A stretch of DNA of 64,000 bases from an uncultured Myxococcales bacterium (GTDB lineage: Bacteria > Myxococcota_A > Bradymonadia > UBA7976 > UBA1532): NCBI GenBank assembly GCA_903847385.1, contig CAINDO010000449.1:1-64000 (forward strand). The letters are read 5' to 3'. Below the pieces are notes generated by a model. It had not been told where the DNA came from. It saw only the letters and a list, made by a program, of their open reading frames with translations, and made no database searches. The first letter of the stretch is position 1. Each line of letters opens with the position of its first letter. The position numbers and the translations under genes are program-made. Positions 25,051 through 51,740 of this stretch are shown here, piece by piece.

Positions 25051-25363
25051 CCGAGGAGCGGTGCCGCGTGCAGAGTGTCTTCGTTGTTATCCTCAGCGGG
25101 CCCAGCAGTTCCAGGATCGCGCTCACGTTCTACTGACATTCCCCCGGGCTGCCGAGGGGACGAACATTCGCTGTTCGTTGTTCGTTCGTGGCCGCGATCG
25201 ATTCCATCCCCCACGAGCCTGATCGATGTCGGCGGGGCCCGTCCGCCATCTGGACCGGGAGTCGTCGCTGGCTACGCTGGGGGTCCGAACGATGAACACC
25301 AGTTGACCCGTACTTGCCGAAGTGAATTTCGAGAATGGAGACTCTCGAAATTTCGGAGGCAAC
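25051..25363 (+). promoter_or_regulatory. control region of the tyrosine recombinase operon
   Basis: No gene. It contains CGAACATTCG and then GTTCGTTGTTCGTTCG between 25161 and 25187, related to the repeats at 20.7 and 22.55 kb. At 25325-25352 there is a perfect inverted repeat with arms AATTTCGAGA and TCTCGAAATT around an 8-base loop. The repeat ends three bases before the GGAGG ribosome binding site. It could be a repressor operator or an RNA hairpin limiting translation of the recombinase. Confidence 0.55.
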
Positions 25364-26317
25364 ATGAATCTAGAACACATCAAGCAGAATACCGAGCTGT
25401 CCGATGAACTTGTCGACAGAGCGCGGCACTTCGCCAGCAGGTCCAAGGCAAATTCCACCATCCGTGCCTATGGTTCAGCGTGGACCGCATTCGTCTCGTG
25501 GTGCCGGGCAAGGGGTGTCGAACCACTCCCCGCTGCGGCCGAGTCGGTTGCCCTCTACGGTGCCGATCGGGCAAGCGATTCCAAGCCCTCCACGCTGAAC
25601 CGGTACCTGGCCGCAATCGCCTCTGCGCACCGACTCGCTGGCCAAGCCTCCCCCATCGGGGACGAGATGGTCCGAGCGGTGATGGCCGGCATCCGGCGGA
25701 CGGTCGGAACTGCGCAGCGCGGGAAAGACCCCCTCCTCATCGGCCACATGCGGGCCATCGTGGAGACGCTGCCCGAGGGCCGTGTCGGTCTTCGGGACCG
25801 GGCGCTGCTCCTCCTCGGGTTCGCCGGAGCCTTCCGGAGGTCCGAGCTCGTCGCGCTGGACGTGGAAGACCTCAGGTTCCGGGACGAGGGCATGGTCGTG
25901 TTCCTGCGGCGGAGCAAGACCGACCAGGAGGGACGGGGCCGCGAGGTGGCGATCCCGTGCGGCGTTCGGGAGTCCACCTGCCCCGTGCAGGCGATGCGCC
26001 GGTGGCTCGAGCACGCGGGGATCTCGTCGGGACCGGTCTTCAGGGGACTCACCCGCGGGAAGGTCGCGGAGGATCGCCTGTCCACACAGGGGCTCGCGAA
26101 CGCCGTGAAGCGCGCCGCCGCCTCTGCGGGCCTGGACGTGGAAAACATCTCCGCCCACTCGCTGCGTGCCGGCTTCGCGACCACCGCGATCATGGCGGGC
26201 GTCCCGGAGCACCTGGTCATGCGGCAGACGGGCCACAAGAGCACCACCGTATTCCGCCGCTATGTGCGGGACGGCTCGCTGTTCCGGGACAACGCCGCCG
26301 CGATGGTGGGCCTATGA
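25364..26317 (+). CDS. tyrosine recombinase (XerC/D-like)
   Basis: 317 residues with an N-terminal core-binding SAM-like domain (ANSTIRAYGSAWTAFVSWCRAR) and a full catalytic domain. Visible are the first arginine (GAFRRSELVALDVEDL), the beta-hairpin lysine region (RRSKTDQEGRG), H-x-x-R (SAHSLRAGFAT), the second H (QTGHKSTT) and the tyrosine (FRRYVRD). It cleaves and rejoins DNA through a phosphotyrosine link. The stop overlaps the start of a partner gene (ATGA). It is unlikely to be the comM integrase, because the element ends share only two bases. Resolution of multimers or a separate inversion reaction is more plausible. Confidence 0.85.
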   Translation: MNLEHIKQNTELSDELVDRARHFASRSKANSTIRAYGSAWTAFVSWCRARGVEPLPAAAESVALYGADRASDSKPSTLNRYLAAIASAHRLAGQASPIGDEMVRAVMAGIRRTVGTAQRGKDPLLIGHMRAIVETLPEGRVGLRDRALLLLGFAGAFRRSELVALDVEDLRFRDEGMVVFLRRSKTDQEGRGREVAIPCGVRESTCPVQAMRRWLEHAGISSGPVFRGLTRGKVAEDRLSTQGLANAVKRAAASAGLDVENISAHSLRAGFATTAIMAGVPEHLVMRQTGHKSTTVFRRYVRDGSLFRDNAAAMVGL

Positions 26318-28275: not shown

Positions 28276-28370
28276 GTTCCACCTCGCCAGTGTCTGGCAC
28301 GGCCACGAGCCCCACGGGCCGGCCACCCTTCTCGTGGTCCGACACGTTCACCCTTGAGGTGTTCCGGTGA
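28272..28370 (+). CDS. 32-residue coupling ORF between two lipoprotein-operon genes
   Basis: The ATG overlaps the stop of the cysteine-rich lipoprotein gene (ATGA), and the stop overlaps the GTG start of the next gene (GTGA). The chain of two 4-base overlaps is what one expects if a short ORF carries terminating ribosomes to the next start. The peptide (MSSTSPVSGTATSPTG..., ending FTLEVFR) is Ser/Thr/Pro-rich, with no recognisable domain. It may matter only for coupling. Confidence 0.45.
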   Translation: MSSTSPVSGTATSPTGRPPFSWSDTFTLEVFR

Positions 28371-29911
28371 CTGCCCGGAATTTGGTAATCGCCGGGGGAT
28401 TCATCTGCCAGGGGTGCTATGCGGCGACGGGTCTCCGGCAGGACACGACGTCGGTTGAGTCGAAGGTTGTCGCCAGCAAGACGGTTCCGGTGGAGCTCGA
28501 CGCTCCGCGGGATGTCGCAATTCGGGCCGACGGTGGCCGCCTGACGTTCCAGGTCGACGACCTCAGGCAGTGCCGGGCCGATGTCGTGGAGACCCACGCG
28601 AACCGCGAGACCACCGCGCGCACCCTCCCCTCCAGCTTCTGGTGGGCCGCCGGATCAGCTGTGGCCGTTGTCGGAGCAGGGGCAGCGCTTTGGGGCGTGG
28701 GCGCAGAGAAGGTCTCCGAGGGGCAGTCGATCAGGCTTGGGGATCCCGACCACGAGAGGAGCCTCGACCGCGGTGTCCAGATGACAATTGCGGGGCAGGT
28801 GGCCGTTGCTGTCGGCGGGCTTGTACTGTCGTCGTCGGTCATCGACCTCTGGCTGGCGGGCGACGAATCGCGGGACTTCTCCACAACCACCACGACGAAG
28901 GGCACAGGTCACGAGTGCCGACGCCAAGCGGCCCCCAGCATCGAGCTGACCGCGCGAGTTGGGGGGATCGAAGCGTCCGTCCGGACGGACCTGACGGGAG
29001 CAGCGACGGTCAACCTCGCATCTCCGGCGTTCAGTTCGGCGGGGTTCGTCGAACCGCTCGGGACCGCGGCGTGCACAGGATGCAAGAGCGCGGAAATCGC
29101 TCTGAGCCCAGAGGAACTGAAGAACCTCATCCTTCCTCGGAAGATGCCTGAGGAGTTGCAGGCATGGCTCTCGAAGCACTCCGATGACCCGTCTGCGCCC
29201 GAGGTGCAGGCTGCGCTCGCTGAAAGCCTCCAGGCCGAGACGGAGCGACTCGCCGTGGAGTCGCGAGCTGCCATGTCGAGCGGTAACCTGGCGGATGCGC
29301 GGGAGAAGGCGAATCGCTGCCTCTTCTTGCTCCCGGAATCGGCAACCTGCCGGCAAGCCGCCGACGCAGTCACTCGCGGTGAAGCCGACGCTGCCCTTGC
29401 CCTCGGGCGGAAGGAAGCGAAGGCCAAGAATTTCGCTGCGGCGACAACGGCAGCGACAGAATGTCTGAAGCTGATCCCGGATTACGCTCCATGCAAGGCC
29501 CTCGCTCGCACGGCAGAGCTCGGTGCCGCAGCCGAGGCACAACGGGGCGAGGCCGCTGGAGCCGCGGAAGAGGCGCTAGACGATCTCGGAAAGGCCGCCG
29601 AAGTCGCAGCGCTGAAGCGGGCGCTCGACAGCCGCGGGTTGGCTTACAACTATGCGCAGTTGGCCCAGGGCATCAATTTCATGGTTGCCCGCGGATGCGA
29701 ACGGCGGGCCGAGTTCCTGACCGAGTACTCGTGGAAGGACTGGACGACGGCTGCGACCGACTTCTGCAAGTCCAACTGGCCCGAATCCTGGCCTGAAGAG
29801 GGCGTGGGGGATCCACCTTCGCCGCAGGTCTGCCTCGGATTCGCCTTGTCGGGGAACTGTTCGGGTGGTGGCGGTCAACCCGGCGGCGGCAGACCGAAGT
29901 CGGGATGGTGA
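28367..29911 (+). CDS. exported TPR-like protein of the lipoprotein operon (paralogue 1)
   Basis: 514 residues from a GTG overlapping the upstream stop. The N-terminus is short and hydrophobic, with a cysteine (VIAGGFICQGC) that may be a lipobox. Two hydrophobic helices lie around residues 84-105 and 140-165 (WWAAGSAVAVVGAGAALWGVG, QVAVAVGGLVLSSSVIDLWLAG). A TPR-like helical part (NLADAREKANRCLFLLPES, FAAATTAATECLKLIPDYAPC) comes next. The C-terminal ~70 residues (FLTEYSWKDWTTAATDFCKSNWP through a final KSGW) are homologous to the end of the next gene product. The function is unknown. Confidence 0.65.
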   Translation: MTARNLVIAGGFICQGCYAATGLRQDTTSVESKVVASKTVPVELDAPRDVAIRADGGRLTFQVDDLRQCRADVVETHANRETTARTLPSSFWWAAGSAVAVVGAGAALWGVGAEKVSEGQSIRLGDPDHERSLDRGVQMTIAGQVAVAVGGLVLSSSVIDLWLAGDESRDFSTTTTTKGTGHECRRQAAPSIELTARVGGIEASVRTDLTGAATVNLASPAFSSAGFVEPLGTAACTGCKSAEIALSPEELKNLILPRKMPEELQAWLSKHSDDPSAPEVQAALAESLQAETERLAVESRAAMSSGNLADAREKANRCLFLLPESATCRQAADAVTRGEADAALALGRKEAKAKNFAAATTAATECLKLIPDYAPCKALARTAELGAAAEAQRGEAAGAAEEALDDLGKAAEVAALKRALDSRGLAYNYAQLAQGINFMVARGCERRAEFLTEYSWKDWTTAATDFCKSNWPESWPEEGVGDPPSPQVCLGFALSGNCSGGGGQPGGGRPKSGW

Positions 29912-29927
29912 TGTGAGGGGTAGTGCG

Positions 29928-31442
29928 ATGAAGACGAGTGCGGTCGCACAGGCGCGCCGAGATCTGCGCAGGAGCAGAACAACCCTAGCCTTGAGCGCGG
30001 CGGTCGTGGGGGTCCTCGGATGCGGTGGGAATCTGCGCAAGACCACGAGGTTTGACGACGTCCCTGTGAGGACCGAATCGGAGCACGAAGTGGTCGACCG
30101 TGCGAACTACCTCGGTAGCGCGGTCATCGAAAGCGGCCAGCTCGTCGTGCAGGTCCAGCAAGAGGACCTCTGCAGGCAGCGTGCAATCGAGGTCGTCGAT
30201 CGGACACAGGTCGCGGGCATCACTAGCAAGCACCTGGGCGAAACCCGGCTCCCACACGACTGGGAGGACGCGCACTGCAATCGACGGCCCGCCGTTGGCC
30301 GCTCGGTGTACCTCCGGTTCAGGGAGCCGCCAGTCGTACCGTCATCTGTGCTCGCGGCCGCTCCGACTGACGCGTCCGGGACTGCCAGCTTCCCGCTCAA
30401 AGAACTTAAGGCGCAGCTCGTGGTGTATCCCGAACCGGTCTTGGCCGCGCTCGTCGCGGCCTTGATGCCTGAGGAGGAAGCACCGGTGGAAGCGGCGAGC
30501 GCGCCGGGCACGCTCGCAACGCCTGCGCCACGGGCCTCGCCCTCGGCAGCGACTTCCCAGGGTGCCAGAGCGACGAAACCGGGTCCGACCGGGGAGAACT
30601 CCATGGTGATTGTCGCGACCGTGCCCGCGGAAGACTTGCGTGCGCTCGTTGCCGACGCTCGATCCGAATTCGCCCAACAACGGGCGGCTGCCGAGTCGGA
30701 GGAGGCAGGCAGCACGATCGCTGTTGCGAAGGCGAACCGGCAGAAGGAGCCCGATCCTGAGGCGGTGCGCGCTGCGGTCGCTCGCGGTGAACCTGTCGCG
30801 GACAGTCGAACTGCGGCGCTTGGCGAGGCGCGAGGTCGCCTCGCAGTCGCGGGCGCCTGGATGCAGTCAGTGAGGCCCGATGCGCCAGGCGCCCCTGAGC
30901 TGGCGAAATCCATTGACGACCAGCACTTCGAGGTCGCCCGAATCGCCAGCACCGCCGAGAGCTATGGCACATACCTTTCAGTGATGCCGAACGGCGCACA
31001 CGCATCTGAGGCGAGGAAGGCCCTGGAGGCGATCACCAAACGACAGGAAGCAGCAGCAGCGGCTGAGGCGCACAGGGCGGAGGCCGCAGCTGCAGCCAAA
31101 GAGGCCCTTGGCTACATCGGGAGCGCCGCGGACCTCGGTTTCTTCAAGCGGGTAGCCGTCACGCGCGACCTGCAATACAAGGGCGACCTACGGTCGGACA
31201 TCAAAGACGCCGCCGAATTCGGCTGCGAGGCGAAAGCCGAGTTCCTCAGGAGCTACTCGTGGAGCGACTGGGTGCGGGCGGCAAACGACTATTGCAAGTC
31301 TGTTTGGCCAGATGCGAATTGGTGGACCGACGATGTCGGGCCCGGGCCCTCTCCATCGGTCTGCATTGCTGCGGCCCTGGCGGGGGACTGCGGAAAGAGT
31401 GGGCAAACGGGCGGCTCGGCGCCCAGCAAGTCCGGCTGGTAA
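29928..31442 (+). CDS. lipoprotein of the same operon (paralogue 2)
   Basis: 504 residues. The signal region ends in VVGVLGCGGN, a lipobox. The middle has Ala/Pro-rich low complexity and TPR-like helices (ESYGTYLSVMPNGAHASEARKALEAI). The end (FLRSYSWSDWVRAANDYCKSVWPD, a VCIAAALAGDC box and a final KSGW) parallels the previous protein, so the genes arose by duplication of at least the C-terminal module. It starts 16 bases after the previous stop. The role is unknown, with an outer-membrane or periplasmic location inferred from the signal. Confidence 0.65.
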   Translation: MKTSAVAQARRDLRRSRTTLALSAAVVGVLGCGGNLRKTTRFDDVPVRTESEHEVVDRANYLGSAVIESGQLVVQVQQEDLCRQRAIEVVDRTQVAGITSKHLGETRLPHDWEDAHCNRRPAVGRSVYLRFREPPVVPSSVLAAAPTDASGTASFPLKELKAQLVVYPEPVLAALVAALMPEEEAPVEAASAPGTLATPAPRASPSAATSQGARATKPGPTGENSMVIVATVPAEDLRALVADARSEFAQQRAAAESEEAGSTIAVAKANRQKEPDPEAVRAAVARGEPVADSRTAALGEARGRLAVAGAWMQSVRPDAPGAPELAKSIDDQHFEVARIASTAESYGTYLSVMPNGAHASEARKALEAITKRQEAAAAAEAHRAEAAAAAKEALGYIGSAADLGFFKRVAVTRDLQYKGDLRSDIKDAAEFGCEAKAEFLRSYSWSDWVRAANDYCKSVWPDANWWTDDVGPGPSPSVCIAAALAGDCGKSGQTGGSAPSKSGW

Positions 31443-33116: not shown

Positions 33117-36100
33117 TCAGGTCTTCCGGGTCCCGCTCTTTCCTCGGGCATTCTTCGGCGCCAACAGCAGCCAGTCCCCCACCCGCTTGGCGCAGTGTGC
33201 CCTGGTGATCGCCGACATGGCGGCGGCGAGTGGGACGTTCCTGGGGCGGCACGGGTGCCCAACCAGTAGCCGAAGAGCTCCCTGCACGGGCACGCGGATG
33301 GTCGCCCCCGGGTTGGCCTCCACAAGCTGGGCCACGACCTCCATGACGGCGATGGCTGGGTCCGGCGTGGTGACTGGCCAATTTGTCCACACGGGTGGCG
33401 CCTCACCCATCTGGACGACCGTGTTCCAGGCTAGGCAGTCGGTCCGCGACCGTCGGGCGCGGAGGAGGACGACGTCGGCCTGTGGGGGCCCGACGAGCGC
33501 CTTCTCCCTCTCGGGGCGGCGACCCCCGCGGGCGCGGAGCCGGAGGCGCAGAAGCTCCCCCTCTGGGTGTGGTTGCCGGCCTGTCACCCGGTAGGCGAGG
33601 TCGCCCTCGTTCCCGAGTACTCCGGGGAGGGCCGTCCAGGGGTCTCGTGGGTCTACGAGCGCCCAGGCCGCCCCGAATACGCGCACCGACTTCAGAGCGG
33701 CCCCGACCGCCCGACGGATACCTCCCTGGGGCAGCTCCCGGAGGGGCCGCAGATCCACGGCTACCCGTTGCCCCTCGGCGTAGACCTTGTGATTGTTCCC
33801 GAGCTTCGGGCGACCACCCCCGGCGAGGAAGTCTATGTCCAGGCAATCCGGGGGCATGCGGATTACGGATGCCGCCGGGGTGTGCGTGGCGTTCACGCCC
33901 CGGCGACTTTTCGCTCTTCTTACAGAGCTTACGGCCGTTGTTGCAGCCGCTCCTTCGTCAGGTTCCCCTGGATCGTGATCATACGTTTCCACACTCTCAC
34001 GATCCGAGAGGATTCCAGTAATACTGGAACCAGAGCTGTAAGGTAGACCCACGTCCTGCGAGACATGGTGATCATCCACAGAGCTCTCTAGGCCACAGAG
34101 CTTATAACTCGAGAGGAGAGAGGAAGAAGAGAACGGAGAAGAACATCCACCCCGAACTCCATCTCCCTCACCAACCGAGCACCTGGTTCCACTACCGCCT
34201 CCCCAGACCCCAATACCGACATCTGGAAGAGGTGATACTACGAGGAGACTTGGCTCCCCGTCTTCCCTTGGCCTACCCGCCTCCCGAGGGAGGATAGTTT
34301 GCCAGGGGGCGACCATCGGATTCGGTTTCCCATCCCCGATGGGGGTATCATAGACACCTACGCCACGGGTGGAAGTACCCGAGGCCTCTTTCGTGTTGCT
34401 TTCATGGCCACCACCGTCAACATCTGGCTCTGTGCAGATTCCACAGTACTCTGGGTGGCAGTGTGTTGCCGTCATTGCCGAATTATCGGCAGCAGTTGAC
34501 TCTACTTCTTCTCCCACGGCGACAACTAGTAAATTACCGTGCTCTCTTCCTCCGTGCGGACCGATGTACCCACCAGAATAATTCGCTAGTTCGCGAACTA
34601 TAGGCGCCGTCTCCTCTGTACGTCCGCCAACGTCTCCTCCCGTGGTGATAGTTCGTCTGTATCCATCCTCTTCTCCTCCATGTGAGCCGCTGTCCACACC
34701 AGGATAATTCGACAACTCGCGAATTGTCACCGCTTCTTCACACCAGTATAACTCATCTCCTCTGTGTGAATTTTCGCCACCACAATTCGACGAATTATCA
34801 ACTACTCGTGGCTCTTCGGTGGATTCTTCTAGTTCGTCATCTCCTCCGAAATGAACAACTGCCCCACAATTCGATGTCGGATGAATTATCGGTGAACTCT
34901 GTGCGGCTCGTTCTGCTCCCGTGAACAGACCTGCTGTCAGAATTGTTGCCAGACCTGAATTATTGTTACCGCCATCGAATTCATCTCCACCATGGGCAAT
35001 AATTCGGCCGGCGAATTGTTCTTCATCTCCCGGTGGCTCGGATCCGTCTGCCGCAGGCTGATAGTTCTCAGTTGCCAATAGTTCATCTCCATCGGCGATG
35101 ATTCTGCGCTGCACCTCTCCACCTGGGACGAGCATGTGGGGATAATTCGCCGGGCTCGTGGCCCCACAGTTCGTCCCGCTACGGGCACCACAACTCGCAG
35201 GGTTCCCCTCCCCCCGAGCATGCTCCCCTCCTCCTCCGTGGCGGGCGATCGCATGGGAATAGTTCGCTGGTTCTCCTCCCAAGCAGATGCCCCCGGGAAC
35301 TTCTTCTCTTCCCGGAGCTGCGGTGGAATTCAGTGCGGAGAGCTTTCGGACCTCTCCTCGGTCGGGAGCTGTCGACCCACACGCCTCTCCGTCCTTCTCT
35401 CCGCCGGCTTCTCCCGGAGAACTCGCCGGCCCCACGCCAGCTCCTTCTTCTCCTCCCGTGACGCTGGACACTCGCAAGAGGCCCGCGCTCTTCATCCAGT
35501 TCCTGGAGATCGCCTGGCCGCCCAGGCTCCGCACTCTTCTCTTCGTGGCGGCGGAGTCCCCGAGTTCCTCGAGCAGGGCGTCCGTCTTCCCCGCTACGAG
35601 CCCCACACCCGACGGCCGGACCTCGTAGGTCTTGAGGACCACGACCGGGTCGGATTCAGTGACCTCGCGGATGCGGGACTCCTTGTGCCCCTCCCCGAGC
35701 GGCCGGATCCCCGTGAAGCCGTGCTCCTTCGCCTTCGCCGAGAATTTCTCGAATGCCGCATGTGCGCCCGCGAGGCTCCTGGCCATCACGTAGATGTCGT
35801 CCAGGTAGGCGGACACGCGGTGCCCGTCCGTCTCCAGCTCCCGGAGCACGAGCGCCAACGCCAGGGCGAAGACCAGGGGCGAGAGCGGGTTCCCCTGCTC
35901 CAGCCCGCGGCCGTTTCGGCGGACGAGATTCCCGGAGCGGTCGACCGTTTGGATCCGCACGAGTTCGAGGACACGGCGGCGTGCCGCCTGGGGGATCCCC
36001 AACTCCTTCATGGCGGTCGTGGCGGCTTCATGAGGGACGAGCGCGAATGCGTCTCGGAGGTCCAGTTCGAGGCACGTCCCGAAGCCCTCCCGGACCGCTG

Positions 36101-36554
36101 CATGCACCAGGCTCGCCGCGTGGTCCTGGGGCCTCGCGTGGAGTTTCTGGCAGAATCCGGCGGGCAGTTCGTCTCCCTTTCTCCAGGGGACGACGCCGAC
36201 CTGCCCGGGGAGGAGGAACCCGCGCACCCGATCGCTGGCCAGGAGTTGCTCGAGGATCAGGAGCGAATTCAGCCGCGTGGACTCGGCCGGAAGGTCAATC
36301 GCTCGGAAACCCCAGGGCCCGTTCCCCTTAGGAATCCGGATACGCAGGGAGGGTACCCGCGACCGGTTCATGGACCCGAAGTACTCGTACTCCCGGTTCA
36401 GCGCCGCCCGGTGGGTCATGGCCTTCGTCCGGCCCTCGCAGTCCGGGACGTGGGGGGAGCCGTTGTGGATCCCCAGGTGCGGCTCGGCACCGTCGCCGCC
36501 AACGGCACGCCAGGCGGCGGAGCAGAGTTCTCGGTCTGTGAAGAAGGTTCTCAT
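33117..36554 (-). CDS. reverse transcriptase fused to a long repeat region and a C-terminal domain
   Basis: 1145 residues from an ATG that overlaps the upstream stop (ATGA). Residues ~65-330 are an RT domain: RIRIPKGNGPWGFRAIDLP (motifs 1-2), CLELDLRDAF (motif A, D165), GLEQGNPLSPLVFAL (motif B) and SAYLDDIYVMA (motif C, YLDD at 250-253). I see no retron-specific NAXXH or group II maturase X/HNH domain. Residues ~380-720 are low-complexity Gly/Glu/Asn/Tyr repeats, encoded by clearly lower-GC DNA with many AATTCG dyads. The last ~250 residues form another domain (CLDIDFLAGGGRPK, VAVDLRPLREL, FGAAWALVDPRDPW) that I cannot name. This frame stays open across the repeats while other frames there are broken, so the fusion appears to be translated. 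Confidence 0.75.
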   Translation of the reverse strand: MRTFFTDRELCSAAWRAVGGDGAEPHLGIHNGSPHVPDCEGRTKAMTHRAALNREYEYFGSMNRSRVPSLRIRIPKGNGPWGFRAIDLPAESTRLNSLLILEQLLASDRVRGFLLPGQVGVVPWRKGDELPAGFCQKLHARPQDHAASLVHAAVREGFGTCLELDLRDAFALVPHEAATTAMKELGIPQAARRRVLELVRIQTVDRSGNLVRRNGRGLEQGNPLSPLVFALALALVLRELETDGHRVSAYLDDIYVMARSLAGAHAAFEKFSAKAKEHGFTGIRPLGEGHKESRIREVTESDPVVVLKTYEVRPSGVGLVAGKTDALLEELGDSAATKRRVRSLGGQAISRNWMKSAGLLRVSSVTGGEEGAGVGPASSPGEAGGEKDGEACGSTAPDRGEVRKLSALNSTAAPGREEVPGGICLGGEPANYSHAIARHGGGGEHARGEGNPASCGARSGTNCGATSPANYPHMLVPGGEVQRRIIADGDELLATENYQPAADGSEPPGDEEQFAGRIIAHGGDEFDGGNNNSGLATILTAGLFTGAERAAQSSPIIHPTSNCGAVVHFGGDDELEESTEEPRVVDNSSNCGGENSHRGDELYWCEEAVTIRELSNYPGVDSGSHGGEEDGYRRTITTGGDVGGRTEETAPIVRELANYSGGYIGPHGGREHGNLLVVAVGEEVESTAADNSAMTATHCHPEYCGICTEPDVDGGGHESNTKEASGTSTRGVGVYDTPIGDGKPNPMVAPWQTILPREAGRPREDGEPSLLVVSPLPDVGIGVWGGGSGTRCSVGEGDGVRGGCSSPFSSSSLLSSYKLCGLESSVDDHHVSQDVGLPYSSGSSITGILSDRESVETYDHDPGEPDEGAAATTAVSSVRRAKSRRGVNATHTPAASVIRMPPDCLDIDFLAGGGRPKLGNNHKVYAEGQRVAVDLRPLRELPQGGIRRAVGAALKSVRVFGAAWALVDPRDPWTALPGVLGNEGDLAYRVTGRQPHPEGELLRLRLRARGGRRPEREKALVGPPQADVVLLRARRSRTDCLAWNTVVQMGEAPPVWTNWPVTTPDPAIAVMEVVAQLVEANPGATIRVPVQGALRLLVGHPCRPRNVPLAAAMSAITRAHCAKRVGDWLLLAPKNARGKSGTRKT
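34394..35300 (-). repeat. array of imperfect ~40-50-base repeats inside the reverse-transcriptase gene
   Basis: On the coding strand the recurring words are CGAAYTAT or CGAAYTGT, followed some 25-40 bases later by GGAGRNGA; I count roughly ten loose copies. On the + strand these appear as ATAATTCG and TCATCTCC/TCTCCTCC. Dyads include TAGTTCGCGAACTA (34587-34600, perfect), GACAACTCGCGAATTGTC (34711-34728, two mismatches), AATTCG-A-CGAATT (34784-34796) and AATTCG-N5-CGAATT (35001-35017). Local GC is well below the flanks. In protein the repeats give NYx and GG-acidic patterns. Confidence 0.65.
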
Positions 36555-37642
36555 TTCGTGAATCTCCAGGCGGAAACGATGCGGTCCGTTGGGGGTGACG
36601 ACCACCAGGATCTCCTCGGCGTTTCCGGGTACCTCACGAGGGCATTCCGGCCCCGGATGGACTCGAGGGCGGCGGTGGTGGCGGATTCGGCGCCGAGCGC
36701 CACGAGAACGCCCTCGGAAGCCTCCGGGATACCGGCACCGGGACGGCCGATCCCCACATGGGCGAGCAGGACCACCAAGGCCCCCGGCTTCGCGTAGCTT
36801 CTGGCCAGAGCGACGATCGGACCGACATGTGCGAGGTCGAGTATCCGCGGCGGACGTGGTCCCGCCTCGGGGTCGGTCGCCCATAGGTTGAAGGTGAAGG
36901 CCTCAGCCGTGGGGATGTTAATCACGATGGCGTCGAACGGGTCCGGGGGCGGAACGTTTACGACTACGCCCTGGTACGGTTCCCGGCACGGGCGAAGCAG
37001 AGGTGCGACCGCCAGACTTGCTGTCCAGACCCGTGTCCGCGGCTGGAATACCGAGAGCGCCGCGGGGCCAGAGGAGTGCCCGAGCTCGACCGTGAGAACC
37101 TCACGCCGGTCGCCGAGGATCTCCGCGGCCAAGAGCAGGGCTTCCACGGGGGCGCGCTCCGGGTCGCCGAGATGGAGGAGCCTCCCCGGCTGTGCCGGGT
37201 CCGCCTCGACGATTGCAGACTCCCCCATCTGGATTCCGGTCCGGGCGAGGAGACGCAGGGACTCGCGGTCCTCGTGGGAGAATGGATTGGCGACCGGCGG
37301 GTTCGGCGCACCGTTTACCCACACGAGGGGCCGAGAACCTCCCGTGGCCTCGCGATACTCGATGGAGGGGTGACGGTTCCGGGTACCAAACTGGACGCAG
37401 GCTGCGTCGGATGGTTCCCCGCTTCGGGCTGCCCGCTCTGCATAGTCCGCCATCGTGGCGAGCTCATGGTCCGACGGCGGCCTGGCCCTTGTCCCGATCG
37501 CCGCCCGGATGAGGGGGTCCCAGTGGGCCCTCGCCCCGGGAACATCGTCGGCGACGAGGCACTGGAGCCCCGCGGCCGCATCTCGAGCCTCCAGGGCCCG
37601 ACTCCTGCGGACGAGCTCCTCCGTTCGGCGTCGGGGCCTCAC
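36551..37642 (-). CDS. unknown protein, possibly methyltransferase-like, upstream of the reverse transcriptase
   Basis: 363 residues from a GTG overlapping the stop of the small upstream gene (GTGA); its own stop overlaps the RT start (ATGA). The C-terminal half has Rossmann/methyltransferase-style features: ALLLAAEILGDRREVLTVELG, DPFDAIVINIPTAEAF and VALARSYAKPGALVVLLAHVG. The last resembles the LxPGGxLVL strand of SAM enzymes. A canonical NPPY/DPPY or GxGxG motif is missing, so activity is doubtful. The tight overlaps on both sides make it a likely functional partner of the RT. Confidence 0.6.
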   Translation of the reverse strand: MRPRRRTEELVRRSRALEARDAAAGLQCLVADDVPGARAHWDPLIRAAIGTRARPPSDHELATMADYAERAARSGEPSDAACVQFGTRNRHPSIEYREATGGSRPLVWVNGAPNPPVANPFSHEDRESLRLLARTGIQMGESAIVEADPAQPGRLLHLGDPERAPVEALLLAAEILGDRREVLTVELGHSSGPAALSVFQPRTRVWTASLAVAPLLRPCREPYQGVVVNVPPPDPFDAIVINIPTAEAFTFNLWATDPEAGPRPPRILDLAHVGPIVALARSYAKPGALVVLLAHVGIGRPGAGIPEASEGVLVALGAESATTAALESIRGRNALVRYPETPRRSWWSSPPTDRIVSAWRFTK

Positions 37643-38085: not shown

Positions 38086-38733
38086 TCAGACCTGAGTGAG
38101 CAGGGTCCCGAGGATGGCGGTCTCACGTGCCGTGAGCCGCGGACCAGGTAGCGGCGGGTCTTCTGTCTTCCCAGCCGCCGGGTAGCACACCGCTAGCAAC
38201 GCATGAACGGGGCCCCACGTCGGACAACGGACTATCTTCGGCGTACGGCCAAGTGCCTCCGCCGCGGCCATGGCGACGTTCAGCGCTTCGGCCGCGCAGG
38301 TCTCCTTCCCGCCGACGCGCATCTCGGCGACCTGCCGCACCAGGTCGAGTACCGCGAGTTCCGGTGCCTCCTCGTAGAACGGGGCGCCCAGATCGAAGCA
38401 CTGATTCGTGTCGACGATCCGGGAGAGGGCGAGTTCCACGCAGCCGTCGACTATCTCCTGATCCACCGCCCCACCTTGGTAGACTGGCGCCGCGGCCGGA
38501 TCACGACGGAGCGCCTCCAGGACATCGTCGGGGTCATAGGACTCCGTGATGGCGACGCATGCGCATATCTCGGCACACAAGGCGAGGGCAACTCCGGCGC
38601 CTATGTCCAGGGGCACATCCTCGTCCTCCTCGGCCTGTGCCAGGGTGCCAAAGATCACAAGTTGATGGGCGGGGATAATCAGGTCGTCGCACTGGGGGAT
38701 CTCGCCAGCGGCGGATTCTACTGTTGGTAACAT
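38086..38733 (-). CDS. unknown acidic protein in the minus-strand operon
   Basis: 215 residues from the ATG (an in-frame GTG nine codons upstream is possible). Rich in Ala, Glu and Cys (CAEICACVAITESYDPDDVLEAL, DGCVELALSRIVDTNQCFDLG), with no metal-binding spacing that I recognise. It ends with RLTARETAILGTLLTQV. Similar in style to the other small proteins of this operon (40423-43161), which may be a lineage-specific set. No function assigned. Confidence 0.6.
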   Translation of the reverse strand: MLPTVESAAGEIPQCDDLIIPAHQLVIFGTLAQAEEDEDVPLDIGAGVALALCAEICACVAITESYDPDDVLEALRRDPAAAPVYQGGAVDQEIVDGCVELALSRIVDTNQCFDLGAPFYEEAPELAVLDLVRQVAEMRVGGKETCAAEALNVAMAAAEALGRTPKIVRCPTWGPVHALLAVCYPAAGKTEDPPLPGPRLTARETAILGTLLTQV

Positions 38734-38818
38734 CTGATGTTCTTTCTTTCTGTGGGTCACTGCCCACGGTGTTCTTGCGGCATTTGGCCGCGACGTCGTT
38801 CAAGCTCCTGCACCGCTC

Positions 38819-44102: not shown

Positions 44103-44321
44103 GTGCAAGGACACCGCCCGAGATCCCCGGCTGTTGACCCCGCCCTCCCGGGTCCGAAGTCCGCCCGAGTACCTGAAGGCTCGGAGGTCGGCTTCAACAT
44201 CACCTGGACGAGCGAGCCCGGCACCTCAACCCCTTCGGCGCCGGTAGTCACCCTGGACCGACGGGTCATCGCCGAGGTCGCGGGGCATCTCAAGGCCAAG
44301 CAGAGCGCCGGGCCGAAGTGA
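44103..44321 (+). CDS. small protein coupled to the serine recombinase
   Basis: Up to 72 residues; the first plausible start is the GTG in AGGAGGTG, and a later start is possible. Its stop overlaps the recombinase GTG (GTGA). The sequence (VPEGSEVGFNITWTSEPG, then VVTLDRRVIAEVAGHLKAKQ) is short and partly beta, with no known domain. A recombination directionality factor would sit here in some elements, but there is no motif evidence. Confidence 0.45.
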   Translation: MQGHRPRSPAVDPALPGPKSARVPEGSEVGFNITWTSEPGTSTPSAPVVTLDRRVIAEVAGHLKAKQSAGPK

Positions 44322-46450
44322 ACCAGGCGCATCACCAGCACGGGGCCCATGCGGGCACCGGGGCGACGGCCTTCTACTCCCGGGTGACGCGGGAGGAGAG
44401 CGTCCGGAAGGGCCTATCCCTCCCCAACCAGCGGAAGCGCTTCCAGGAGCTGGCTGAGCGCCACAGCTGGAACTTCGTGGCGTTCGAAGAGCCCCGCCAA
44501 GTCAGCGGGGAACTGGGCGAGTCGGAGCGCCCCGCCCTCCACGAGATGCTCGAAGCGGTCCGCCGTGGCGAGGTCTCCCGGGTCGTCGTCCGCCACCTGG
44601 ACCGCCTGGGCCGTGGCCCCGTGCTCGAGGAGCTCCTCGCCGAGCTCCGGACCCGCGGCGTGGACCTGCAGACCTTCGAAGGCCCTGTGGACTTCGCCAG
44701 CGCCGCCGGCCGCCTCGCGGTTCGTGTCCAGGGGGCGGTCGGTGCCTTCGAGGTGGAGCGCGGGGGCGAGCGCTCCCGTGAGTCCCGGCGCCAGCGCGCC
44801 CGCCAGGGGGTGTACGCCGGGGGCCCCGCCCCCTACGGTTACACGAGCCAAGCCCGCCTGCGGGCGGAGCTCGTCGCCGAGTATGGCCCAGAGGGGGCCG
44901 AGCGAGCACGCCGCGAGTCCCAGGAGCGAATCCCGATCTCCCCCGGCCTGATCATCGACGAGGCGGAGGCCCAGGTCGTCCGGGAGATCTTCGCGAAGTA
45001 CCTCGCCGGCAAAGGCCCCCGGGCCCTCGCGGGGGAATTCAACCGGCGAGGACTGACCCGCCGTGGGGCCAAATGGTGGGCCGTCCTGATTCGCAAGGTG
45101 CTCCGCGACCCCAAGGTTGCCGGATTCACGACCTTCGACGAGGAGGCCTATGCCAACCGCCGCCCCTCCTCGTCCCCGATCCACCGTCAGGCGCGGTACC
45201 CCGCGCTGCACGAAGCCATCATCGACGTCGAGACCTTCGAGCGGGCCCAGGTGCGCCTCGAGCACGGCCGGCGGAGAATCGCCGGGTTCGAGCGAACCAG
45301 CCGCATCTATCCACTAACAGGCGTCGCACATTGTGCGGTGGGTCACCCCATGAAGGGTAGCTGCGGGGACACGGGGGGCGATGGTAGGCACCACTATTAC
45401 AGGTGCCGGCCCCGCGCCCACCGTGGGACCGACTCCGGGCTTGGCGGCTGCGACGCCCCCTACATCCGGGCGGACAGGGCCGAGGCGATGGTGCGCGAGG
45501 TTCTCGTGGAGGTGCTCACCGCCCCCGAGCATGTTCTGAGGTACCTGGAAGCCGCCAACCAGAAGGCGCAGGAGGAGTCGCCTGAGCGGCGGAGGGAACT
45601 CCAGGCTGTCGCCGCGGAGATCGACGACGTCCACCGCCGACGGTCCAAGCTCTACGCCCTCCTCGAACGCGCCGGGGACCCGGAGCGAGAGCAGGCCCTC
45701 CTCGGCCGCGTCGTCGAACTCAACCGAGAGATCCGCGACCTCCAGGAGAAGCAGGCGGAACTCGACCGGAGAATCGTGCCCCTCCGGGAGCGTGGCGTTA
45801 CGGAGGCGGAGGTCGTCGCATACCTCGCCGATCTCCGGGACCTCCTCTCGGAGGACCGGGCAGCGGCCAAGCAGCTGGTGCTCCTCATGCTGGAGCATCA
45901 CGACCTACGGGTCGACATCCTGGACGCCTACCAAGTGCGGGTCAGCATGCAGCTCGACCCCTCCCGGATCATCAGCGGCGATTCCGGCGCACGGACCCCG
46001 CGTCTGGTGGCCCACGTCCGCCCCAAGCACGCTCTCACGATCGATGCGGGACGTGCGCGCCCGGTCAGCAACGAGGATTGGGCCGCCGCCGAAAACGCTA
46101 CGGGCCGCTTCTGCGCGTGTGGCTGCGGGGAGCGGCTCCTGGTGCAGCCCATCCACCGGGCGCCGGGCGTGGGCATCCCGCGGTTCGTCCAAGGCCACCA
46201 TCGGATGGACATGACGGAGTTCGTGGCCGCCCTGAACGCAAGCGGACTCCTGACGGTCTCCCAGGCGGCGACGAGACTCGGCGTCTCCTCGAACACGATG
46301 CGCCGGGCGGAAGGCCACGGGTGGGTCACGCCCCAGTGGCACCCGTGGGGCGGACGCCAGCCCATGCGGTGCTATGCCGAGGCCGACCTCCCGGAACTGC
46401 GGCGGCGGTTGGTGGCGGCGGGCTTCCGGTTCCGGGACGACGGGGGCTGA
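44318..46450 (+). CDS. large serine recombinase with extra C-terminal zinc and MerR-like HTH modules
   Basis: 710 residues. The resolvase catalytic domain is visible (FYSRVTREESVRKGLSLPNQ; RHLDRLGRGPVLEELL), then the Recombinase domain (GGPAPYGY; EIFAKYLAGKGPRALAGEFNRRGLT), a zinc ribbon (GVAHCAVGHPMKG, YYRCRPRAH) and a coiled coil (residues ~425-500). The usual nucleophile serine of YxRVS is a threonine here (YSRVT). After residue ~600 two modules are added: FCACGCGERLLVQPIHRAPG with RFVQGHHR (zinc-like), and a MerR/excisionase-type HTH (LLTVSQAATRLGVSSNTMRRAEGHGWV). The 2-bp GG at the element ends suits this enzyme class, so it is the best integrase candidate, subject to the nucleophile question. 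Confidence 0.82.
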   Translation: MNQAHHQHGAHAGTGATAFYSRVTREESVRKGLSLPNQRKRFQELAERHSWNFVAFEEPRQVSGELGESERPALHEMLEAVRRGEVSRVVVRHLDRLGRGPVLEELLAELRTRGVDLQTFEGPVDFASAAGRLAVRVQGAVGAFEVERGGERSRESRRQRARQGVYAGGPAPYGYTSQARLRAELVAEYGPEGAERARRESQERIPISPGLIIDEAEAQVVREIFAKYLAGKGPRALAGEFNRRGLTRRGAKWWAVLIRKVLRDPKVAGFTTFDEEAYANRRPSSSPIHRQARYPALHEAIIDVETFERAQVRLEHGRRRIAGFERTSRIYPLTGVAHCAVGHPMKGSCGDTGGDGRHHYYRCRPRAHRGTDSGLGGCDAPYIRADRAEAMVREVLVEVLTAPEHVLRYLEAANQKAQEESPERRRELQAVAAEIDDVHRRRSKLYALLERAGDPEREQALLGRVVELNREIRDLQEKQAELDRRIVPLRERGVTEAEVVAYLADLRDLLSEDRAAAKQLVLLMLEHHDLRVDILDAYQVRVSMQLDPSRIISGDSGARTPRLVAHVRPKHALTIDAGRARPVSNEDWAAAENATGRFCACGCGERLLVQPIHRAPGVGIPRFVQGHHRMDMTEFVAALNASGLLTVSQAATRLGVSSNTMRRAEGHGWVTPQWHPWGGRQPMRCYAEADLPELRRRLVAAGFRFRDDGG

Positions 46451-48558: not shown

Positions 48559-50136
48559 TTACGTGAAAGGGTCTGCGACGATTCCGGGCGCTATTGGGCG
48601 CTGTGCGCGTCGGTGCTCTCTTCGCTCAATCCCGCGTTGAACACGATCCGAAAGGGAAACGCGATTCGGACCGTTCCGAACTGCTGTTCCCGGGTGCAAA
48701 GAACACAAGATCGGCTCCACATGTTCCCATGCGGCGTTCAACGCTTTCTTGCGCCCGCTGATGCATAGAATGGAGACTTCAACTTTGCCCCGCTCCAGCA
48801 GAACACGTGCGTCAATGCCGTAGTGATGAAGCACGATTCCTAAACGCCTACGAGTCACGTCTGCCTTCACCATAGAGTCAATTGCCAGTACACAGAATTC
48901 AATGTCAACGGACATCAAGCGCAAGTCAAGCAGTCGCCACCACGTTGCGGGGAAACGCCGAGCTGCCGCTTCAACAATGTCGAGTGAACGATGATACGGG
49001 ACGAGCGAGCCCTCGATGGCCGGTTCGTGCCAGTATTCGAGTAGCGCGGATGACAGCCCTAGTAGCAAATTTCTTGCCTCAAGAAGTGAGCACGCTCGCA
49101 GCGCAGCACATCCCACCACAAGCAGGCTTGTCATGGAGGTCCAGATCTTGTACCCGCGAGAATACTCAAGGCGGCCTCGGTAACGTAGCTCAGCCAAGGA
49201 CCTCCACGACTCATTCCAGCGTGATGAAGGCTGTCCTAGTGTGGCCAAGGCTTCGCCGATCGTGCCAGACCACAGAGGTTGCAATGACCGTTCATCAGGA
49301 TGGTCATCTGTGTCTGAGAGTGCCGAGATGTAGATTTTCCAAATCGACTCAACGGCCCGGTGCCTTACGGACGCGTCGCTCAAGCCAAATGCAATGTGGA
49401 TTTCGAATAGGAGAAACGCTTGACCTGCGATCCCTGCACAGGCGGGCCACTTCGCGAATTCCTGTATCCGCTCCGGATGGACGCCCTGGTCCGAGAGCCA
49501 GACGAGACAGGCATTGATCATGGGGACTCGTTCGTGAGTCCCAAGGTAGAGCAGTTCGTGGAGGAGGTTGGCGCAGATTGCAATGACCAGCTCGACGCAG
49601 TCAGGTCGGGTCGAGAGCGCGGCGAGCAGTGCTTGAGGCCAATACTGACGGTGCTTGTGTCTCTTCACCCACGTCCGTCGTCCCTGATTTGAAAACGATC
49701 TAATGTTGGTCAGGACGGTCGAAAGTATCTGTCCTGCAATCGTAAGGGCCAAGCACTGGTGCACGTCACCATTCTGAAAGGACTTGGGCGCATGGCTCAG
49801 AATCGCGGTCGCGTCGAAGTGCGATGAAGAAGACTCAAGATCATTGCACACTGCATGCAGAAGCGTCGCATGTTTGATTCGCACCAAATTCGCAGTCAGT
49901 GCGTCGGCGCCCCACACCGCAAGTATTGCCGCGTATGTGTCGCGTGCTTTGCGAGAAATCGAACATTCTCCGCCCGGATTCAAAAGCGATCGAATGCCGT
50001 AGGCGACCGCAGGATTAGAGTAGCTACGCACGTCGCGTGAAAGCCAGACCAAGTCTGATGCATGCACCGGACCCGACGCAGCCAGCGAGCGCCAATCCAA
50101 CTGCGGTAAATCTTCCGTCTCCTCGTTGTTCATCAT
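48559..50136 (-). CDS. large helical protein, second gene of the low-GC operon
   Basis: 525 residues, starting with ATG ATG; the first overlaps the stop of the upstream gene (ATGA). Almost entirely alpha-helical (LVIAICANLLHELLYLGTHERV; CAALRACSLLEARNLLLGLSSALLEYW), with cysteines and tryptophans spread through. It could be a HEAT/ARM-like repeat scaffold or sensor, but I do not recognise a family. Tight coupling to the PLD-like gene means the two proteins are probably made in similar amounts and may interact. Confidence 0.6.
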   Translation of the reverse strand: MMNNEETEDLPQLDWRSLAASGPVHASDLVWLSRDVRSYSNPAVAYGIRSLLNPGGECSISRKARDTYAAILAVWGADALTANLVRIKHATLLHAVCNDLESSSSHFDATAILSHAPKSFQNGDVHQCLALTIAGQILSTVLTNIRSFSNQGRRTWVKRHKHRQYWPQALLAALSTRPDCVELVIAICANLLHELLYLGTHERVPMINACLVWLSDQGVHPERIQEFAKWPACAGIAGQAFLLFEIHIAFGLSDASVRHRAVESIWKIYISALSDTDDHPDERSLQPLWSGTIGEALATLGQPSSRWNESWRSLAELRYRGRLEYSRGYKIWTSMTSLLVVGCAALRACSLLEARNLLLGLSSALLEYWHEPAIEGSLVPYHRSLDIVEAAARRFPATWWRLLDLRLMSVDIEFCVLAIDSMVKADVTRRRLGIVLHHYGIDARVLLERGKVEVSILCISGRKKALNAAWEHVEPILCSLHPGTAVRNGPNRVSLSDRVQRGIERREHRRAQRPIAPGIVADPFT

Positions 50137-51740
50137 TCGCCTACCGTCCGGTCAATGGCTTCATGAAGGGGAGTTGAATTCTCCCAGAACGCATCGAGCA
50201 AACTGAGAAGATCCGCGTTGTTGTCATGACGCGCCGCAGTGGTCAGGGCGTCACCGAAGTTGTTGAAAGAGCACCCAAGGACCCAGGTTTGATCGTCGAC
50301 AACAAGAAATCGATCATGAATGTCGTCGGCGAGGAGAACTCGAACCTCGACCTGGACGGAGCGATCTTGCTGAGATATTTGGTTAAGCATTGATTCGATA
50401 TTGACAAGTCGCCCAAGAGGCTTTTCGACGGCGCCCGGCACAATCTTAGAACGAGTCAACAAGCACTGAACTTTCACGCCTTCGCGACCTGTTGCGAGAG
50501 CGAATCGCGCGATGTCGCCCTCGGAGAGGAAGGGATCAACCATACGCACTCGCTTCTGAGCGGTGGCGATTTGAGCACGCAGCCAGGTCGTTGCTTCCGG
50601 AATCTGCTTGAGGAACGACACCTGCAAGGCCCGCTCCTCCATATCCCCTCGCTGCGCCCAGCGAAGTTGACGAGAACGGAGGAAGCTTTCATGAGCCGGT
50701 GCGGACGTGCCAATGCTCGTTGTTCGCTCGGAACTCACGAGGGGCACCTCGTAGGTTTCTGGTTCAGTGGTTCGTTTCCTGGCTGGCGCAGAGACTTGGC
50801 GCGTACCGGATCTGATTCCTATGTTCACTGATATTTGGCGAAGTCGATATGCTGGTGCCTGCGAATACAGTGTGCCCCTCGTGCTGCATATGAGATGCAT
50901 GCCATTCTTGCCGATATCATGGTTCCACCGTAGTAACGTAAGTTCGCCGCGCACGGGTGCGACCACGACAGTCGAATGTTCCCCAAAACGTTCTTCGAAC
51001 GCGACAATCGTCAGCTCATCGAGGGCACATCCAACACGTGCTCGCAGATGCACAGCCATGACCTGGTCCTCGGGGAAGAAGACGTCCAGTTCACGCAGCA
51101 ACGGATTTGGCAAGATGAGGTACACGCACCCGGCCAGGTCAGGGTAGCCAGCAAGGTTCAGGCCGCATCGCGAGTGCACCCACTCGCATAGCCTGCCCCA
51201 AGCACCAATTGCTAACGCACTGCGCAAGACCTCAGGCTCGGTGCAGGAATACGATGCGAAGCGCACGCCGGCAGGCACACTTCCCGCAAATGACAGCGGC
51301 GATCCAACGGTGCTGCCGGCAACGCAGAAGCTGCCCCACGGGGGTTCGAAGCCCCCCACCGCAACCGTGAGGCGATTATCGACTATTGACGGTCGATCGA
51401 TTTGTACATGCGGAATGCTCGCGCCACCGACTCCCAAATTCCGGAACCACTTGAGGCCCGCTTCAATATTGAGATGTGCGCGACGGTGCCACGCATCTAC
51501 GTGTCCCGGAAGCACCGTGTGGCCGTCACGTGGGTTGGTAGGGATTTCCGGTAGTATACACTCGCCTCTGGGAACCAGACGCATTGACGCAAACAGAAGT
51601 CGTGCATGTTGTTTTGAGTCCGTCGGCAGGCGGAAGGAGATGATGTCGATAGTTGCTTGCTGATAATCACGCAGCAGAGCCCGCAGCGATTTGTCGCCGG
51701 AGTCAAGTGGCCCGCCTGGATTCGACATTTGTGTATTCAC
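50133..51740 (-). CDS. PLD-like nuclease-domain protein, first gene of the low-GC operon
   Basis: 535 residues. The C-terminal ~170 residues resemble a phospholipase D-like domain of bacterial conflict proteins: RMVDPFLSEGDIARFAL, VKVQCLLTRSKIVPG, then DIHDRFLVVDDQTWVLGCSFNNFGD. The H-x-R-F-x-(V)-x-D part replaces the classic HKD. The N-terminal ~350 residues are unique. PLD-like nucleases cut or process nucleic acids in several antiphage systems. The 570 bases upstream hold no gene and probably its promoter. Confidence 0.65.
   Translation of the reverse strand: MNTQMSNPGGPLDSGDKSLRALLRDYQQATIDIISFRLPTDSKQHARLLFASMRLVPRGECILPEIPTNPRDGHTVLPGHVDAWHRRAHLNIEAGLKWFRNLGVGGASIPHVQIDRPSIVDNRLTVAVGGFEPPWGSFCVAGSTVGSPLSFAGSVPAGVRFASYSCTEPEVLRSALAIGAWGRLCEWVHSRCGLNLAGYPDLAGCVYLILPNPLLRELDVFFPEDQVMAVHLRARVGCALDELTIVAFEERFGEHSTVVVAPVRGELTLLRWNHDIGKNGMHLICSTRGTLYSQAPAYRLRQISVNIGIRSGTRQVSAPARKRTTEPETYEVPLVSSERTTSIGTSAPAHESFLRSRQLRWAQRGDMEERALQVSFLKQIPEATTWLRAQIATAQKRVRMVDPFLSEGDIARFALATGREGVKVQCLLTRSKIVPGAVEKPLGRLVNIESMLNQISQQDRSVQVEVRVLLADDIHDRFLVVDDQTWVLGCSFNNFGDALTTAARHDNNADLLSLLDAFWENSTPLHEAIDRTVGE

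Follow-up and report, generated by a model that had tools for sequence, protein, structure and literature searches.

A rare Myxococcota reverse transcriptase operon with a probable structured RNA element inside the reverse transcriptase reading frame

The stretch of DNA analyzed here (the window) comprises positions 1 to 64,000 of contig CAINDO010000449.1, from assembly GCA_903847385.1 of an uncultured Myxococcales bacterium. It carries on its minus strand a reverse transcriptase (RT) gene in which the RT core is followed, within a single open reading frame (ORF), by a long linker and a C-terminal domain (CTD) (Table 1). The linker is doubly constrained, by an open frame and by an RNA fold. 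The mechanically called ORF begins upstream, at 36884; the ATG at 36554 was taken as the start because it overlaps the stop codon of the upstream gene, as is the case in the homologs. That upstream gene encodes a methyltransferase-like partner protein and is in turn overlapped by a gene for a small putative DNA-binding protein; in the window the small gene, the partner and the RT are one tight three-gene unit. An earlier note on this stretch had described the fusion, and had missed both its strand and the two co-conserved genes upstream of it.

Table 1. Features of the RT cassette in the window.
Feature	Position	Strand	Basis or remark
Small putative DNA-binding protein, 61 aa	37639..37824	-	Ribbon-helix-helix by look; stop overlaps partner start (GTGA)
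Methyltransferase-like partner, 363 aa, GTG start	36551..37642	-	Stop overlaps RT start (ATGA)
RT-linker-CTD ORF, 1145 aa	33117..36554	-	ATG at 36554, stop 33119-33117
RT core, residues about 65-360	35475..36362	-	Pfam RVT_1
YLDD catalytic motif, residues 250-253	35796..35807	-	Translation
In-frame linker, residues 372-885, ~514 codons	33900..35441	-	Low third-position GC, no stops, excess sense-strand RNA structure
Degenerate two-box elements in linker	34530..35267	-	GAATTAT-like, then GGAGGAG-like 20-37 nt later; window copy only
Strongly structured linker segment	34605..34832	-	z -6.2 against dinucleotide shuffles; surrounding segment z -2.0 against codon shuffles
Hairpin cluster, linker 3' end into CTD	33825..34052	-	Residues 835-900; codon-shuffle z -6.6 sense, -2.8 antisense
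Junction hairpin, 10 bp, stem GTCGCCGGGG/CCCCGGCGGC	33871..33907	-	GC-rich, linker-CTD boundary
CTD, residues 900-1145, ~245 aa	33120..33857	-	Conserved in family

The window RT matches Pfam RVT_1 at residues 160-281 (E 6.9e-15), in agreement with the motifs, YLDD among them, that had been read from the sequence before. RVT_1 scores above the cut-off in all five proteins of the family described below, whose catalytic motif is YLDD, FGDD or YVDD, with the two aspartates invariant. With a family profile, the nearest solved relative of the RT core is the GsI-IIC group II RT (E 1.9e-11). The middle of the RT ORF has a GC content of 50-56%, against about 69% in the flanks, consistent with the lower-GC, in-frame region already described. 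The distinct C-terminal domain, previously put at ~250 residues, can be aligned across the four core members of the family; the window CTD has no match in Pfam, and its AlphaFold2 model (predicted local distance difference test (pLDDT) 44) gave no fold match and is too poor to use.

Whole-genome searches (1,295 genome searches counted, repeats included) identified three homologs with the same single-ORF fusion of RT, linker and CTD in Myxococcota metagenome-assembled genomes (MAGs): G001 (770 aa; MAG.78, JAKLJY010000127), from the same genus as the window copy, G005 (816 aa; KLAP118, CAUJDF010000029) and G061 (811 aa), from a class that differs from that of the window. These three and the window copy are the core members; a diverged fifth locus, G051, has a layout that matches the single ORF. 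All homologs found are single ORFs, and none has an RT that ends near residue 340 with the CTD as a separate gene, the arrangement that the earlier note had set against its proposal of an undescribed one-protein architecture; the proposal stands. The family is rare, and no core-family relatives were found in searches of plasmids, phages or IMG/VR. Most plasmid matches to P0002 and to the diverged P0009 are annotated as group II RTs, and the ones that were opened are group II-type or ordinary mobile-element RTs; weak genome matches of ~50 bits in other Myxococcota were, where opened (G240 and G496 were left out), either RT-primases or RTs of group II type. A small tree groups the four core RTs together (100/98) at the end of a long stem and places G051 as the sister of this clade (85/94). 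The RT of G001 pairs with that of G061 (95/94) and is not the nearest neighbor of the window RT, although the two come from one genus; this suggests horizontal transfer.

In all five loci, the start codon of the RT gene overlaps the stop codon of the gene before it (ATGA or GTGA). We regard the fusion as a conserved system because the homologs keep the single ORF, the overlapping partner and the small DNA-binding gene. Among 58 relatives, the partner profile matches only the RT-bearing G000, G001 and G005. The G061 partner matches the PADLOC profile mad2 (E 3.4e-4, one member), which matches DNA methyltransferases too, and the fold matches of a partner model with a pLDDT of 33, likewise too poor for use, are mostly methyltransferases, none of them significant; the residues at the catalytic (N/D)PP(Y/F) position are degenerate, reading NVPG, NIPT, NLAN or NVPS. 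The 61-residue small protein of the window has no Pfam match, while at the equivalent position Pfam identifies HTH_17 in G001, G005 and G061 and RHH_3 in G051. As annotated in this analysis, a gap separates the small gene from the partner in G005. Immediately upstream of the window cassette, on the same strand, lies a 224-aa gene without a Pfam match (38086-38760).

The window linker holds no in-frame stop codon, against 15.2 expected if the base composition at each codon position is kept (P about 3e-7), and the other two sense frames across it hold 16 and 25. These counts bear out the long stop-free run in the earlier note, which had interpreted the region as ~340 residues of repeats. The linker is in fact ~510 residues long; loose, degenerate two-box elements are present (GAATTAT followed by GGAGGAG, roughly 8-9 copies counted by eye), but the window linker contains no tandem array, and its main selected feature is sense-strand RNA structure, not a peptide repeat. 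Linker length was also to be compared among homologs, and it varies: the ~514 codons of the window are the exception, against ~120-165 codons in the homologs (~148-165 in G001, G005 and G061). The linker protein sequence is not conserved among the homologs. Third-position GC drops in the linker of all five loci, to 0.28-0.6 in the window against 0.8-0.9 elsewhere; the drop in the other four is about one quarter to one third. The window linker contains 12 CsrA-type GGA motifs (ANGGA), not seen as a conserved feature, and no conserved internal start for the CTD was found on reading the sequences.

Compared with dinucleotide shuffles, strong structure clusters within the linker and at its edges, mainly on the sense strand. 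Under codon shuffles, which preserve protein sequence and codon use, the top sense-strand linker segments of the four core genes have z-scores of -6.6, -4.9, -4.8 and -5.2, against -1.6 to -2.8 for the antisense strand at those segments; the scores of CTD segments are close to 0, and those of core RT segments range from +0.6 to -2.7. Windows of 24 codons with z < -2 make up 16-30% of the linkers, compared to 3-9% of the rest of the genes and 3.7% of windows in 32 control genes of the same genomes. One control, a group II-type RT gene (L009:964-2400), is an outlier with 21% under codon shuffles; it may itself lie within structured intron RNA. In the core genes, junction hairpins of 8-12 bp are placed 27-43 residues ahead of the first conserved CTD strand and rank first or second among the windows of their gene in all four cases, and G051 has a 9-bp hairpin at the matching linker-CTD position; the stem sequences differ among the five loci. 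No known RNA family was matched in Rfam. No systematic structure signal came from the partner genes or from the sequence preceding the operon, single segments in G005 and G051 excepted: upstream of the operon, the window, G001 and G061 are without signal and the other two show isolated dips. With its genes overlapping, the window operon has little space left for an RNA outside the linker. These data indicate that the linker very probably contains an RNA element under selection for its sense-strand fold.

Comparison with known RT classes gave no fit to any class tested, consistent with the earlier judgment that the RT could not be placed as a retron, group II intron, diversity-generating retroelement (DGR), Abi-type or CRISPR RT. 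As a group II intron RT/maturase, the window protein reaches 39.6 bits with TIGR04416 against a cut-off of 300; profile scans found no maturase domain, and Rfam no group II intron RNA. Group II intron RTs have the nearest RT core by profile, and in both cases RT gene and structured RNA overlap, with the arrangement inverted: the intron carries its ORF within the RNA, whereas here the RNA would lie within the ORF. No retron profile matched the window RT, although no specific msr-msd search was made; G005 gave one weak 'RT_outgroup' match. No retron RT motifs were noticed, and retron-specific PADLOC profiles match poorly. Retrons, too, have an operon that comprises an RT, a structured RNA and accessory genes, but their RNA gene is separate. 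A second, unrelated RT gene of the same genome (contig C617, L001:1264-2619, minus strand) looks retron-like by eye. For DGRs, the genome contains no further copy of the linker, and QGNPLSP differs from the form that RT motif 4 takes in that class.

A CRISPR-associated RT was likewise rejected, no cas1-like gene being seen among the Pfam-scanned neighbors; the best PADLOC RT profile for the window RT is a general CRISPR/RT profile. CRISPR-associated RTs and RT-primase fusions resemble the present protein in joining an RT to a large C-terminal part, and occur in Myxococcota. They differ in that this part, as judged by eye, looks primase-like, with cas1-like genes alongside in two, and in that three RT-primase fusions tested showed no comparable linker signal. 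Myxococcota RTs with a primase-like C-terminal part were seen at L045:1925-4564, L046:3706-6423, L047:654-3158 and L007:8-2281, some with cas1-like genes. Among the defense-associated RT (DRT), Abi and UG classes, the best UG match of the window RT is 1e-4, and no core member does better than 9e-9, a weaker match than to general RT profiles; for G051, many UG profiles give moderate matches. DRT2, DRT3, DRT9 and DRT10 share with this cassette an RT with structured RNA, a compact layout and a plausible defense context. In these systems the RNA is encoded outside the ORF, and in DRT2 and DRT9 it precedes the ORF (PMC11100668, PMC12489045), and their partner genes and CTD differ. The closest working analogs are the DRTs that contain a non-coding RNA, together with retrons. 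No report of an RT with its own RNA inside its ORF was found in the open-access literature.

Downstream of the G061 copy, at a distance of 14 bp, is an hsdR fragment; the G005 copy has type II methyltransferases in its neighborhood, and tyrosine integrases occur near the window, G061 and G051 copies. In the window, the cassette is flanked by a tyrosine integrase (25322-26317, plus strand) and a large serine recombinase (44318-46450, plus strand), and the region may be a mobile element. Two overlapping genes at 48559-51740 (minus strand), the second with a PLD-like nuclease domain and a match to the PADLOC candidate PDC-S05, may be a further defense candidate. At 28367-31442 (plus strand), two adjacent genes whose products have a similar C-terminal tail, with KSGW at its end, look like tandem paralogs.

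We favor, with a probability of about 0.5, a three-gene RT system whose cognate structured RNA is encoded inside the linker of the RT ORF. The linker is read in this way because several characterized defense RTs use a dedicated structured RNA, which makes it the economical reading; DRT2, DRT3 and DRT9 depend on such RNAs (PMC13213688). There is, in our estimate, roughly an even chance that the linker RNA is the template or scaffold of the RT. A single transcript would be translated into the small DNA-binding protein, the partner and the RT, and the linker segment, whether within the mRNA, cut out of it or separately transcribed, would fold into a series of hairpins ending in the junction hairpin. 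We infer that the RT, with its CTD and the partner, would bind this RNA and synthesize DNA with it as template, scaffold or both, in a mode likened to that of retrons and DRT2/3/9, whose RNAs are separately encoded. The small DNA-binding protein would regulate expression or guide the complex; defense against phages or plasmids would be the most likely output. A more specific version is tentative and, in our estimate, somewhat unlikely: one stretch would serve as both protein linker and dedicated RNA, the RT would bind this RNA in cis, within its own mRNA, and copy it, and would so couple its own synthesis to the supply of template, and the partner would be a catalytically dead methyltransferase-like protein.

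Several observations weigh against a cognate RNA in the linker. The family comprises five loci, every one from a MAG, and the alignment of the junction hairpin is too diverged for covariation. In G051 the codon-shuffle signal is weaker, with linker z-scores of -3.3 and -1.9 and -3.7 in the RT part also. This locus is tied to the core solely through its RT, layout, third-position GC dip and junction hairpin; hhalign gives 97.7% for its RT region against the core profile, a match that any RT would show to some degree, and profile comparison linked neither its CTD nor its partner to the core. A defense role for the cassette is plausible, as judged from its neighborhood only. Finally, DRT1 and DRT4 work without an RNA template (PMC13275509, PMC13213688).

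The existence of such template-free RTs also lends support to translational control, in which the linker hairpins would slow the ribosome to allow co-translational folding, or else adjust expression, with the RT using another template or none. The structure does lie in mRNA that is translated, between the parts encoding two domains, and the junction hairpin comes directly ahead of the CTD. It nevertheless spans much of the linker, in several segments in the window, which exceeds the need of a pause site, and the collapse of third-position GC extends over the entire linker; we therefore consider this explanation unlikely. More improbable still is a linker that is only a disordered, fast-evolving tether, with GC drift and hairpins of no RNA function. 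Its unconserved peptide sequence and greatly differing lengths are as such a tether would have them, but the structure goes beyond that of codon-preserving shuffles in all four core genes (z -4.8 to -6.6), and ordinary genes of the same genomes show no such excess. Least probable is a DNA-level element, either a binding or recombination target of the small protein or a nearby integrase or a sequence that the RT diversifies in the manner of DGRs, for despite the inverted GAATTAT-like motifs of the window copy, the excisionase-type HTH_17 proteins of three operons and the integrases near three copies, the linker has no second copy or template in the genome, the box motifs are confined to the window copy, and the stronger sense-strand structure of the top segments favors RNA.

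If the cognate RNA of this RT is indeed carried in its linker, the consequences would extend beyond the locus. RT-RNA defense systems are usually sought through RNAs beside RT genes, and an in-frame RNA would escape such searches; some 'single-gene' RT systems might thus be RT-RNA systems in disguise. A self-contained RT and template would be of interest for the study of DNA-writing enzymes, and the family is a further RT clade, one whose set of partners is new.
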